This document shows positions 5,979-48,788 of a stretch of 64,000 nt of DNA, piece by piece. How positions within the stretch are numbered: the first letter of the stretch is position 1; every line of letters begins with the position of its first letter. Origin of the DNA: Flavobacteriaceae bacterium (GTDB taxonomy: Bacteria > Bacteroidota > Bacteroidia > Flavobacteriales > Weeksellaceae); the NCBI GenBank assembly GCA_018260565.1, contig JAGLAZ010000004.1, positions 1-64,000 of the forward strand, given 5' to 3'. The notes beneath the pieces were generated by a model. The model searched no databases. It had not been told where the DNA came from and saw only the letters and a list, made by a program, of their open reading frames with translations. The position numbers and the translations under genes are program-made.

Positions 5979-5984
5979 TAACAA

Positions 5985-6281
5985 GACAGCTGGCCTGCCG
6001 CACTCCTTTTTGGAATGAGGAAAGTCCGGACACCAAAGAGCAGCATGAGGGCTAACGGCCCTACACCGTGAGGTGATGACAAGTGCAACAGAAAGCAAGT
6101 ACAGTTCGGCTGTAGTGAAACCAGGTAAACTCCATGCGGTGCAATGCTAAGTATACCGGCAGTGGGGCGCGGCTCGTGCTTTGCCGGGGGGTAAGCAGCT
6201 ACATTTTGCAGGCAACTGTAAAGGCAGATAAATGGTAGGCACTCCTTTTGGGGAACAGAATCCGGCTTACAGGCTGTCTTT
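5985..6281 (+). ncRNA. rnpB: RNase P RNA component (class A)
   Basis: The catalytic RNA that removes 5' leaders from pre-tRNAs. The conserved 5' segment GAGGAAAGTCCGGAC lies at about 6016-6031 and its 3' partner ACAGAATCCGGCTTAC at about 6255-6270. The ends pair (GACAGC at 5985 with GCTGTC at 6273-6278) to close helix P1, followed by a short T-run. The protein subunit gene (rnpA) is not in this window. The RNA lies alone between the divergent ECF sigma gene and the convergent DUF1573 gene. Ends are placed from the P1 helix and may be off by a few bases. Confidence 0.95.
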
Positions 6282-6336
6282 TTATTCTAAAAAAAATCCA
6301 ATTTTGAATTGACCTAAATTATATCCTTAACAAAAA

Positions 6337-45247: not shown

Positions 45248-45997
45248 TTAAAGTACGGAAGAATGTGCGTCTGGAAAATGCTTAACAGGATTTTCCGCTA
45301 ATTTATATTCCAAGGCCTTTTGCTCGATACTAGCGGAATTCTCTAATTGAAAATTTTTATTTTCAATAAATTCCGTTAATAAAGTTCTCATTTGTTCGGC
45401 AGCTACTTGAGGCAAATGTGATTTTTTGGCCGCTTCTATAACTTGTAATTTTGCATTGGTTTGAATTTTAGCCAAATCATCGCGGCTAAGAAGGTTATAG
45501 AATTGTTCTTCTATATTGTAATATTTATAATCTGTTTCTGTACTTAGAATTTCTGGGGCTGGAAAATCTATAAGTCTAACTTTTTTAGTAATCTCATCTA
45601 CTTCCCATTTTAATTTTTGAAAATCATAGCCTATTAATACCTTAGCTTGTACTATAACTAAAGCACTCTTTTTAGAGGGAATAAAGTTAAATAATTTGCT
45701 TGACTGTTCGTAATTATAGATTTCACTAAAATGTCCTTCGGCAGATACTATTTTAAATACTTTTCGCATACTTTCCGCGATGGTATGAGAAGATTCTGTT
45801 ATAGTAACAGGAGGTGTAGAATTCCTGCTTAACAAATAAGCTATAATGCCACCCATTCCCAGACCAAGCAGAAGCATTACCACCATCATCATCATACCAG
45901 AATTACCAGCATTTTGAGACATATTATATAAGAGCAAAAGAAAAAATGCGAGAAATAATATCCCGACGCCTATCGCAATATTTTTTATATTTTTCAT
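45248..45997 (-). CDS. DUF4230-family membrane protein
   Basis: A 249-residue protein with two N-terminal membrane helices (about 8-26, 35-60) and a DUF4230 domain (about 70-220, VFKIVSAEGHFSEIYNY) on the other side of the membrane. DUF4230 is widespread and of unknown function. It overlaps the nuclease-like gene upstream by one base and ends the queD operon. Confidence 0.85.
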   Translation of the reverse strand: MKNIKNIAIGVGILFLAFFLLLLYNMSQNAGNSGMMMMVVMLLLGLGMGGIIAYLLSRNSTPPVTITESSHTIAESMRKVFKIVSAEGHFSEIYNYEQSSKLFNFIPSKKSALVIVQAKVLIGYDFQKLKWEVDEITKKVRLIDFPAPEILSTETDYKYYNIEEQFYNLLSRDDLAKIQTNAKLQVIEAAKKSHLPQVAAEQMRTLLTEFIENKNFQLENSASIEQKALEYKLAENPVKHFPDAHSSVL

Positions 45998-46533
45998 TAT
46001 AAAAATTTTTGATTTTTTAGGATCAATTCCCGTGTTCGGGATTTAAGTTCAAATTTACGATATAATAGCTGCATTGCCATTTTTCTAAAAAAACTGTCTT
46101 TATCAGTAAGCTCCCATAAATTTTTAGAATGTAATAAAGTAGGCTTACGGATGCTATAAAAGTCTGTTCGCCAATCATCTACATTATGATAATATTCTAT
46201 GATTCCGCAATGTTTAGGGATTTCATCATGCGAGATCATTCCCATAGGTAAAAGAAAACTAAAATGATTATAGGGATAATCACCCTTTGCTATTCTGTCA
46301 TGCTTGTAATGAGAAATTTTGGTTTGATCATCCACAAATGATTTTTTAAAATCGTTTTTGAAATCTGACTTAGAACACTTTACCTCAATTTCGTGTGTAA
46401 TACCTTCAGGATTAATACATAAAAAGTCCGCTTCCCATCCTCCGTGGTAATGATTGGTAAGGAGTATATCACGCTCGGAACTGCATTGGGTAGTGATATA
46501 GGCATATAGTATTTCTTCTTCGCGTAAATTCAT
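45997..46533 (-). CDS. PD-(D/E)XK nuclease-like protein (MmcB-related)
   Basis: A 178-residue protein that reads like a PD-(D/E)XK-fold nuclease: WEADFLCINPEGITHEIEV with the D...ExK pattern (AD at about 36-37, HEIEVKCSKSDF at about 48-59), followed by H and K residues. MmcB-type DNA repair nucleases share this form. I place the start at ATG 46533 because it overlaps the LuxE stop (ATGA); a TTG 18 bases upstream is less likely. No SOS or repair gene lies nearby. Nuclease activity is inferred by motif. Confidence 0.7.
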   Translation of the reverse strand: MNLREEEILYAYITTQCSSERDILLTNHYHGGWEADFLCINPEGITHEIEVKCSKSDFKNDFKKSFVDDQTKISHYKHDRIAKGDYPYNHFSFLLPMGMISHDEIPKHCGIIEYYHNVDDWRTDFYSIRKPTLLHSKNLWELTDKDSFFRKMAMQLLYRKFELKSRTRELILKNQKFL

Positions 46534-47540
46534 ACTACCAACTGGCTGCAACCCCGGATTTCAGAATGATCTATTCTTCCCAATACCTCAAATCCTGGAT
46601 GAAGATATTTCTGGTTCTCGAGTGCGTTAATTTTACCCAAATCTTCTGTTGCAATAAAACTACAAGTATGATAATTAGCCAGATCTATAATATTAATACC
46701 TCCTTGTCTTTCATCTTTAACAAACGAAAAAGGATCGTCCAACTCCCGAACTAAAATACGCATCCACGATGGTGAATAATACGTCATATCCCCTATTGTG
46801 TAAGCCTGGGAAAACAATTCTGTCATAGAATATTCCGATAAAATAGTTGTTCCTGGAAAAGCATGTTGTAATACTTTCAGCATTTCTAATTTGGTAATCT
46901 CCTTTTTCCTACCTTTCATACCTCCAGTCTCAATTATTTTAATAGTGTTACGAGCTGAGAATGCAATATTTTCCTCTTCACAATAAGCAGCAAAATCCAA
47001 TAAAGCAAACGAAACTCCGAATAAAATAATATCTTGCTCTTGAGGCTGAGTTAAAATGGAAGCCAATTCCTCAAAATTATTTAAAAAATAGCCTGTATTA
47101 TGATGACGAGATTTTTTCATTAGATAATCTGTCATAAATATTAAGGAGGAATGTGGGTTTTCCTGATAGTTGGGAAGTAAACCAAGAATTATTTGATCCT
47201 CTGGATTTCCAACAAATTGCCGGTAGGCATATTCCAAACTTTGTGTGTACCAATAAATATCCTGGATATAATGTCGAGATCTCGATTCTATATTACCAGT
47301 CCCTGAACTCTGAAAAAATAATGCAGATTCTTTCCCGTAGGCCGAAACAACATAATTCTTCCACATAGAAATTGGCAAAAAAGGTATCTCTACTAAGGAA
47401 GATACTTCATTTGGATTAATGTGCAATAAAGATATGTACTGTTTATATATGGGTACATTTTGTACTTGATACTGAAATATTTTAAGCGCGTGCGCCTCGA
47501 ACTCCGCTAAAGTCTTGATAGAAAAAATGTGATCCATCAT
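46530..47540 (-). CDS. LuxE-like acyl-protein synthetase
   Basis: A 336-residue enzyme of the LuxE family within the ANL (acyl-CoA/AMP-ligase) fold. The adenylate-binding motif appears as FFQSSGTGN (about 74-82) and the conserved ILSEYSMTE (about 235-243) supplies the ANL core. LuxE activates a fatty acid as acyl-AMP and passes it to a Cys of the enzyme; here no luxC/D partner is present, so the acceptor is unknown. It is translationally coupled to lpxH (4-base overlap) and to the nuclease-like gene (4-base overlap). Confidence 0.85.
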   Translation of the reverse strand: MMDHIFSIKTLAEFEAHALKIFQYQVQNVPIYKQYISLLHINPNEVSSLVEIPFLPISMWKNYVVSAYGKESALFFQSSGTGNIESRSRHYIQDIYWYTQSLEYAYRQFVGNPEDQIILGLLPNYQENPHSSLIFMTDYLMKKSRHHNTGYFLNNFEELASILTQPQEQDIILFGVSFALLDFAAYCEEENIAFSARNTIKIIETGGMKGRKKEITKLEMLKVLQHAFPGTTILSEYSMTELFSQAYTIGDMTYYSPSWMRILVRELDDPFSFVKDERQGGINIIDLANYHTCSFIATEDLGKINALENQKYLHPGFEVLGRIDHSEIRGCSQLVV

Positions 47541-48346
47541 TTCAAGGGAAAATAAGATAATTTAATTTCTCCAGTATGATCCATTTCAGCATAGGAAAAA
47601 TAGGATATCCAGTCTCCTAAATTGATATATTTTCCACCATTTTTTAAATCTCGCATTAGAGGTAAATGCCTATGTCCGTATATAAAATAATCTATATTGT
47701 AGAGTGATGCCTTTTTTTCTGAATATAACAGTAAATATTCTTTATCCTCGCCTAAAAAGTGAACATCTTCTTTTCCAGAAATAAGTTTATTTTTCTTGCT
47801 CAAATAATCTGCAAAACGAAAGGAAATATCAGGATGAATCCATCTGAAAGCAAATTGTGCCAAAGGATTAGTGAAAAGCTTTTTCATTCTTTTGTATCCC
47901 GTATCTCCAGGGCCTAAACCATCACCATGGGCCAGAAATAGGATTTTGTTATTGATGCTTATGATTTTTTTGGAGTGAAAGACAGGGATGTTTAATTGAT
48001 TTTGAAAATAATCTTTCATCCAAATGTCATGATTGCCTGTGAAAAAGTAAATCTCCTTTCCGTTATCCCTAAGTTCAGCCAATTTTCCTAACACACGGAC
48101 AAATCCTTTAGGTATTACAAATTTCCACTCATGCCAAAAATCAAATAAATCACCCATTAAAAAAAGACATGAGGCATCTTTTTCTATTTGAATGAGCCAT
48201 TGGACAAAATGTTTTTCTCGGTTCAGACTACTTTCTAGGTCCTTCTCTGCACTAAAATGCTGATCTGAAGCGAAATATATCTTTTTATTACTAGAGATTT
48301 CTAATTTAATGTCTGGGATAGGATTAGTTTTAAGCATTTCATCCAT
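47537..48346 (-). CDS. lpxH: UDP-2,3-diacylglucosamine diphosphatase
   Basis: A 269-residue calcineurin-like metallophosphatase of the LpxH branch, which makes lipid X in lipid A synthesis at the inner membrane. The metal motifs are ASDQHF (around 25-30), GDLFDF, GNHDIW and GHRHLP. Start is placed at ATG 48346, which overlaps the queD stop by 8 bases; ATGs at 48355 and 48337 are alternatives. The overlap with queD and with the LuxE-like gene implies one operon. Confidence 0.9.
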   Translation of the reverse strand: MDEMLKTNPIPDIKLEISSNKKIYFASDQHFSAEKDLESSLNREKHFVQWLIQIEKDASCLFLMGDLFDFWHEWKFVIPKGFVRVLGKLAELRDNGKEIYFFTGNHDIWMKDYFQNQLNIPVFHSKKIISINNKILFLAHGDGLGPGDTGYKRMKKLFTNPLAQFAFRWIHPDISFRFADYLSKKNKLISGKEDVHFLGEDKEYLLLYSEKKASLYNIDYFIYGHRHLPLMRDLKNGGKYINLGDWISYFSYAEMDHTGEIKLSYFPLK

Positions 48347-48788
48347 TTTGATCATCAGCAAACCACTCCGCGTAAGATGTTTCCGTTTCGTATAATTTTA
48401 AAGAGGCTAATGTAATATGAGCTGGTAGTCGGAAATTTATTTTTTCTGCAATGGCGTAAAGCATCATCTCACAAGTAGGTTGAAAATCACAAAATACTAC
48501 TTGATGCCCTTGACTCTTAAGCTGCTCACCTAGCTGAAGGTGAGGAGTTTTAGCATTTATTAAAACTGCGTGATCCCATTGGCTAACGATTTCTTCATTA
48601 ACTATCAATTTTAATTCTCCGAAATCCATCAACATCCCATTTTTACTATGGGTGATATCCTCTAAAGGAATACCTTTTACCGTAACAAATAGGCGATAGG
48701 AGTGTCCGTGCAGATTTTTACATTTACCATCATATCCATAAAGAACATGGGCAGTCTCAAAGGTGAATATTTTGGTAAGGCGGATCAT
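48339..48788 (-). CDS. queD: 6-carboxytetrahydropterin synthase (PTPS family)
   Basis: A 149-residue protein of the PTPS/QueD family, which makes 6-carboxy-tetrahydropterin for queuosine. Zinc and catalytic motifs are CKNLHGHSYRLFV and FDCQPTCE-type (CDFQPTCEMM). The start at ATG 48788 gives the family's usual MIRLTKIFTFETAH opening; a longer version would add 30 residues from a promoter region. A full promoter lies just upstream. It heads the five-gene operon to DUF4230. Confidence 0.9.
   Translation of the reverse strand: MIRLTKIFTFETAHVLYGYDGKCKNLHGHSYRLFVTVKGIPLEDITHSKNGMLMDFGELKLIVNEEIVSQWDHAVLINAKTPHLQLGEQLKSQGHQVVFCDFQPTCEMMLYAIAEKINFRLPAHITLASLKLYETETSYAEWFADDQNG

Follow-up and report, generated by a model that had tools for sequence, protein, structure and literature searches.

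Genes at the locus

The stretch of DNA analysed here (the window) comprises 64,000 nucleotides, positions 1 to 64,000 of the forward strand of contig JAGLAZ010000004.1 in assembly GCA_018260565.1, from a Flavobacteriaceae bacterium placed in the Weeksellaceae (order Flavobacteriales, phylum Bacteroidota). It carries a gene for a LuxE-like protein which very probably belongs to the queuosine pathway, its product forming with a LuxC-like partner a pair that takes the place of QueC and QueF in much of the Bacteroidota. The source genome (G000; genomes, loci and families bear our own G, L and f numbers) measures 1.87 Mb and is 99.8% complete, and its nearest named relatives, judged by LuxE, are Chryseobacterium, Epilithonimonas, Kaistella and Riemerella.

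The LuxE-like gene lies in a block of five genes at 45248-48788, all on the minus strand and overlapping one another by 1 to 8 bases; an earlier note on this DNA, made from the sequence alone, had described the block in this way, and its coordinates, strand and overlaps were confirmed. Overlap is common in the window, as it is found in 18 of the 41 adjacent same-strand pairs of open reading frames (ORFs) of at least 90 amino acids. The block consists of queD, encoding a 6-carboxytetrahydropterin synthase of 149 amino acids (48339..48788; PF01242, 98.3 bits; TIGR03367, 82.5 bits and thus slightly below the cut-off of 89.25), a gene for an lpxH-like UDP-2,3-diacylglucosamine diphosphatase (47537..48346; NF003743, 93 bits where NCBIfam requires 134), the gene of the LuxE-like, putatively carboxylate-activating enzyme of 336 amino acids (46530..47540; PF04443, 54.7 bits, cut-off 24.9), a gene for a PD-(D/E)XK-nuclease-like protein of 178 amino acids (45997..46533) and one for a membrane-anchored DUF4230 protein of 249 amino acids (45248..45997; PF14014, 86.9 bits, cut-off 27). 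The domain calls made earlier for QueD, LpxH-like, LuxE and DUF4230 stand, as opposed to that of the nuclease-like protein, whose NERD and MmcB matches are both sub-threshold (13.8 bits for the Pfam family MmcB-like, PF06319, under a cut-off of 22).

The LuxE-like protein

The Pfam family LuxE is matched at an E-value of 0.01 by all 20 aligned members of the LuxE-like family, while the NCBIfam equivalog LCFA_lig_LuxE scores 59 bits against a cut-off of 550, which makes the protein a relative of LuxE and not LuxE itself. Its sole sequence relative in the PDB is 7xc6_E, the LuxE of a LuxC-LuxE complex. The alignment between the two reaches the last residues and places Cys331 opposite Cys364 of 7xc6_E, which we take to be the acyl acceptor of LuxE; Cys331 is kept in every aligned relative (20 of 20 and 35 of 35). 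Of the 61 residues that are invariant in the family, 26 are common to the LuxE chain of 7xc6, the S78-S79-G80-T81 loop, E241, D300, R322 and Cys331 among them, and 35 differ from it.

The AlphaFold2 model of the protein has a mean predicted local distance difference test score (pLDDT) of 89 and a predicted template modelling score (pTM) of 0.88. In the model of 336 amino acids there is no C-terminal domain, and the C-terminus (325-336) with Cys331 is disordered. The best fold matches of the predicted structure are aryl-acid ligases of the PaaK type (Z 23-26), followed by EhpF (Z about 20-21); 7xc6_E is absent among the fold matches listed, which is uninformative either way. The sequence fits an enzyme of the LuxE type that activates a carboxylate with ATP.

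A LuxC-like partner

A search of 119 genomes of the order with the Pfam family LuxC found one ORF of about 340-365 amino acids in most of them, and a profile of 18 of these LuxC-like proteins is present in 104 of the 119. In the PDB this profile matches LuxC of 7xc6 only; the LuxE-like and the LuxC-like proteins each have one of the two 7xc6 subunits as their sole PDB sequence relative. In the source genome, the LuxC-like reductase is encoded on contig 5 (80409-81431) and matches Pfam LuxC (PF05893) with 22.4 bits at a cut-off of 21; for the NCBIfam LuxC equivalog it reaches 15.1 bits, below the cut-off of 750. All 18 aligned members match PF05893 weakly at an E-value of 0.01. Cys209 is conserved in 17 of the 18, with the alignment to LuxC of 7xc6 spanning the N-terminal part only.

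The pairing of the two proteins extends through the phylum, for which 247 genomes were tabulated with cut-offs of 1e-55 for LuxE, 1e-15 for QueF and 1e-40 for QueC (only stronger matches being counted). Strong LuxE is found in 106 of the 247, and every one of these 106 has LuxC; nine further genomes have a weak match to the LuxC profile only, and one (G275) a weak match to LuxE only. In 39 of 47 genomes that belong to other classes, the LuxC gene comes immediately after that of LuxE on the same strand, while luxE and luxC stand apart in the Flavobacteriales loci read.

In these Flavobacteriales, the luxC-like gene and a gene for a 2[4Fe-4S] ferredoxin mostly lie in divergent orientation (L073, L075-L079, L081, L085, L089), with serC, serA and a DUF1015 gene following in most loci; the ferredoxin gene is retained in G086 (L090) despite a broken luxC. 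A joint role of the pair with ferredoxin, serC or serA was rejected as this neighbourhood is not conserved in distant operons. SerC may nevertheless be a candidate for the aminating enzyme of the pathway proposed below. A second, divergent LuxE-LuxC pair stands beside the queuosine-type pair in G030 (contig 1, 1538974-1541130); its LuxC match of 102 bits is much nearer to true LuxC, and this pair is possibly a real fatty-acid or pigment-related reductase.

A rival reading, in the direction of the earlier note, is a fatty-acid reductase for envelope or other lipids, in which LuxE would activate fatty acids and LuxC would reduce them to fatty aldehydes. Such a function would agree with the Pfam matches of both proteins, with the catalytic residues and the acceptor cysteine held in common with the LuxE of bioluminescence and, in one family, with the lpxH neighbour. 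We regard it as very improbable, however, because both proteins score far under the NCBIfam cut-offs (59 against 550 bits for LuxE, 15 against 750 for LuxC), the nearest folds are those of aryl-acid ligases, and the exclusion of QueC and QueF, the que operons and the joint loss with queE and tgt described in the following sections would be left unexplained. Ether lipids or plasmalogens were considered as well, by analogy with myxobacterial ElbD (PMC9131029; papers are given here by their PubMed Central identifiers), and were rejected as nothing tied them to LuxE-LuxC.

Distribution against QueC, QueF and Tgt

QueC and QueF together convert 7-carboxy-7-deazaguanine (CDG), the product of QueE, to preQ1. 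In the source genome QueD, QueE (contig 26, 33852-34475) and Tgt (contig 12, 8253-9320) are all present, the latter two as matches of a genome search, and neither QueC nor QueF has a match at an E-value of 0.001; it is for this reason that a replacement of the two enzymes by LuxE-LuxC is proposed. The LuxE-like gene occurs in 104 of the 119 genomes of the order, 5 of these copies being fragments or broken. Among the 69 genomes that are at least 98% complete, 65 have LuxE, LuxC and QueE, 3 have none of them and one (G012) is discordant; in this table of the order the broken copies of G086 are scored as present.

Across the phylum the two sets of enzymes exclude each other. QueF is found in none of the 106 genomes with both LuxE and LuxC, as against 134 of the 141 others, and strong QueC in one of the 106, as against 130 of the 141. 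Analysed by family, with no further correction for phylogeny, the split leaves 18 of 43 families with LuxC and LuxE only, 24 with QueF only, none mixed, and one, f49, without either set. Family f25, whose members are the only class-mates in the sample that lack the pair, has QueC and QueF. A QueE match, weak in some genomes, is present in 106 of 106, and Tgt in every genome with LuxE and LuxC among the 80 chosen for a Tgt search (in G281 in two frames). The three genomes of f49 (G249, G297 and G301, about 3.6 Mb) lack Tgt as well as strong LuxE, QueC and QueF, and are apparently free of queuosine.

Operons and joint loss

The association with queuosine genes is also seen in gene order. A tight four-gene operon queD-queE-luxE-luxC is found in G184 (L093) and an operon queE-luxE-luxC in G135 (L103), while the family of the window has the order queD-lpxH-luxE; queD, which the earlier note had treated as incidental, thus proved to be the informative neighbour.

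Further evidence comes from 13 genomes of about 600 kb, probably those of Blattabacterium. Here luxE, luxC, queE and tgt were detected in 10; in G086 each is interrupted by stops or survives as a remnant, and G094 and G101 lack all four. A stop or split frame is found among the ten carriers in LuxC of G028 and in QueE of G055, G063, G028 and G078. When G108 (about 640 kb), which has both lux genes, was compared with its relative G094 (about 617 kb), which has neither, 58 of 575 ORFs were without a good intact match in G094; queE and tgt, together with amino-acid genes, are among them, in a comparison that was not targeted at these genes.

A coincidence of lineages could produce part of this pattern if the groups with LuxE and LuxC had lost QueC and QueF and now salvaged preQ1, the function of the pair being unrelated. 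The distribution does track families, so that independent switches are far fewer than 247, and a COG survey based on queC and queF counts the Bacteroidetes among the main queuosine "sinks" and salvagers (PMC10570037). Nevertheless, this explanation has very little probability in our judgement. QueE, useless for the salvage of preQ1, is matched in all 106 genomes, operons of que and lux genes exist, and the genes decay in parallel in the genomes of about 600 kb. In addition, a transport test went against the supposed preQ1 transporters of Chryseobacterium and Winogradskyella: the YgjP candidates of these two genera, like that of Bacteroides dorei, did not transport preQ1 (PMC11130926). The same paper names Capnocytophaga as a consumer of precursors.

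A proposed route to preQ1

The pairing of LuxE with LuxC, the exclusion of QueC and QueF, the operons and joint loss with queD, queE and tgt, and the conserved catalytic residues were all computed from the genomes, and membership of LuxE-LuxC in the queuosine pathway is strongly supported. We therefore hold it likely, with good confidence, that the LuxE-like and LuxC-like proteins form a two-enzyme carboxylate reductase which replaces QueC and QueF on the way to preQ1. With regard to the chemistry, we infer CDG as the substrate, a thioester relay, an aldehyde and an amination, guided by what the LuxC-LuxE family is known to do and by where the pathway has its gap, between QueE and Tgt. QueD and QueE would provide CDG, which LuxE would convert with ATP to CDG-AMP, and the acyl group would then pass to a thioester on Cys331 of LuxE. 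From there it would be accepted by LuxC and reduced with NADPH to 7-formyl-7-deazaguanine, which either amination or a second reduction, of the imine, would turn into preQ1 for insertion into tRNA by Tgt. Taken as a whole, a second, independent bacterial route to preQ1, leading from CDG by way of a thioester and 7-formyl-7-deazaguanine to amination, bypassing the preQ0 nitrile, serving most of the sampled Bacteroidia and several other classes, and making makers of many presumed "salvagers", appears probable to us.

The same pathway might also employ a different chemistry, in which LuxE would activate CDG towards an amide or nitrile and LuxC would reduce a nitrile or thioimide like QueF, with no free aldehyde. 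LuxE-LuxC does replace both QueC and QueF as a unit, and no dedicated aminotransferase was found, either next to luxE and luxC or among the genes that disappear along with them, as this variant would have it. Pairs of the LuxE/LuxC type are, on the other hand, reductases of carboxylates to aldehydes, as the family and 7xc6 indicate, and no resemblance to an amidotransferase or to QueF is seen in either protein; we consider the variant unlikely.

Several observations weigh against a LuxE-LuxC route by way of the aldehyde or reduce the weight of its evidence. The Pfam LuxC match of the source genome is weak, the reductase and amination steps are ones that we infer, and genomes within a family are not independent of one another. 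No preQ1 riboswitch was found at the gathering score in the 14 sources scanned. A QueC-family gene (1e-23 to 1e-42) is present in four genomes with LuxE and LuxC (G018, G188, G192, G289), and a weaker match to the QueC family in a fifth (G281). Of the 141 other genomes, seven lack QueF as well as the pair; G099, at 92% completeness, has QueE and Tgt but no LuxE or LuxC, and G012 retains a LuxC-like protein (L091:7100-8131) without LuxE, QueE and Tgt.

Some of these exceptions may have explanations of their own. None of the five genomes with QueC-family genes has QueF, and their QueC-family genes may belong to other pathways, for example the 7-deazaguanine modification of DNA or defence. The LuxC-like protein of G012 has Asn at the position of the conserved cysteine and is perhaps a relic or has been repurposed. 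Among the other genomes, QueF is found without strong QueC in G145, G202, G258 and G302; within the order, G037, G066 and G069, with a completeness of 94-97%, are further discordant genomes.

Neighbours in the family of the window

Within the window's family (f1), parts of the five-gene block are well conserved. The nuclease-like gene is found in 13 of the 119 genomes of the order, every one a member of this family, and lies downstream of LuxE within about 700 base pairs on the same strand in 13 of 13 carriers, which shows a real gene order at the level of the family and not the chance of a single genome. All five neighbours are present in Kaistella palustris (L125), lpxH adjoins LuxE in all five loci of the family that were read, and a DUF4230 gene stands beside the block in three compared loci (L113, L125, L047). 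Outside the family, 14 Flavobacteriales loci were read, and neither lpxH nor queD stands beside LuxE in any of them. The block represents a gene arrangement particular to the Chryseobacterium/Kaistella group and not a functional unit, a reading that was rejected because the synteny exists at the level of the family only. As LuxE is found throughout the order and its neighbours are confined to the family, LuxE must be the older and wider element and has to be explained on its own.

The nuclease-like protein has E34, D36 and E48-x-E50-x-K52 invariant in 12 of 12 aligned relatives of the Weeksellaceae type, and a PDB search with it gave a single match at chance level. None of the five proteins of the block was matched in PADLOC at an E-value of 1, and PHROGs gave no match. 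A defence pair of LuxE and the nuclease-like protein was rejected on the grounds of the missing PADLOC match and of the difference in occurrence (LuxE is in 104 of the 119 genomes, the nuclease-like gene in 13).

These results separate what the earlier note had proposed for the block. Its suspicion of an uncharacterised system behind the LuxE-like protein holds, and the pair with the nuclease-like gene, which it allowed might be a chance neighbourhood, turned out to be conserved within the family and restricted to it. The coupling to lpxH and envelope lipids was not borne out: lpxH is a neighbour in one family, whereas LuxE occurs across the order and beyond, and a coupling to lipid A was rejected for the lack of lpxH beside LuxE in the loci read elsewhere. 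Instead of an acylation of a protein or envelope substrate by LuxE, the evidence favours queuosine synthesis with the LuxC-like partner. Elsewhere in the window, an RNase P RNA of class A was found at 5982-6285 on the plus strand (RF00010, 211.6 bits).

Comparison with known systems

Among the closest known systems is the LuxE-LuxC fatty-acid reductase of luminous bacteria (7xc6), which likewise combines an adenylating enzyme with a thioester reductase and shares with the LuxE-like protein the P-loop, E241, D300, R322 and the acceptor cysteine. It differs in that the pair described here has no luxAB or luxD neighbours, consists of shorter proteins and is tied to queuosine genes. With the QueC-QueF route the proposed LuxE-LuxC route has in common the overall conversion of CDG to preQ1, with QueD and QueE upstream and Tgt downstream, but its proteins are unrelated to QueC and QueF and the two routes are mutually exclusive in their distribution in the phylum.

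By structure, the best matches to the LuxE-like protein are aryl-acid ligases of the PaaK type (2y27, 4rvo, 9s45), which align over about 300 residues with Z 24-26 at an identity of 11-15%. PaaK-type ligases have, in addition, a C-terminal domain, and CoA esters are the product of most of them. EhpF (PDB 3hgu, 3hgv, 3l2k), whose fold the LuxE-like model resembles as well, is without the C-terminal ANL domain. Together with EhpG it has reportedly been suggested to convert an aromatic N-heterocyclic carboxylate into the aldehyde by reduction. EhpF-EhpG may serve as a precedent for an adenylating enzyme of the size of LuxE acting with a reductase on an aromatic N-heterocyclic acid; it differs in its low identity (about 11%) and in belonging to secondary metabolism, that of the phenazine D-alanylgriseoluteic acid, and not to tRNA. 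A published table lists EhpG as a member of the aldehyde dehydrogenase family (PMC11278526).

The only experimental work on a LuxE of the Bacteroidota found among openly licensed PubMed Central papers concerns Riemerella anatipestifer, in which deletion of AS87_03730 led to slower growth and to attenuation in ducks (PMC4772473). The genes up-regulated in the mutant were mostly ribosomal, and the authors suggested that fatty-acid metabolism was disturbed (PMC4772473). A role related to translation weakly suggests itself as fitting these expression data at least as well as one in fatty acids.

A LuxE-LuxC route is not mentioned in the extracts of PMC6593275 and PMC13329287, and searches of openly licensed PubMed Central papers for queuosine or CDG together with LuxE or acyl-CoA reductase found nothing relevant among the papers listed. 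The route thus appears to be undescribed in the literature searched, with enzymes of a known superfamily and a known product; it would be a new variant of a known pathway.

Implications for queuosine in the Bacteroidota

Queuosine is a modified base of tRNA with the character of a vitamin, which animals obtain from bacteria alone, and surveys infer its makers from the presence of queC and queF. Many Bacteroidota that have been counted as salvagers are probably makers. If the proposed route is correct, a large part of the phylum would move from "sink" to "source" of queuosine, and the retention of QueD and QueE in Bacteroidota without QueC and QueF would be explained. It would also give LuxE-like and LuxC-like proteins a role in primary metabolism outside luminous bacteria, and it predicts 7-formyl-7-deazaguanine as a metabolite that can be searched for directly.

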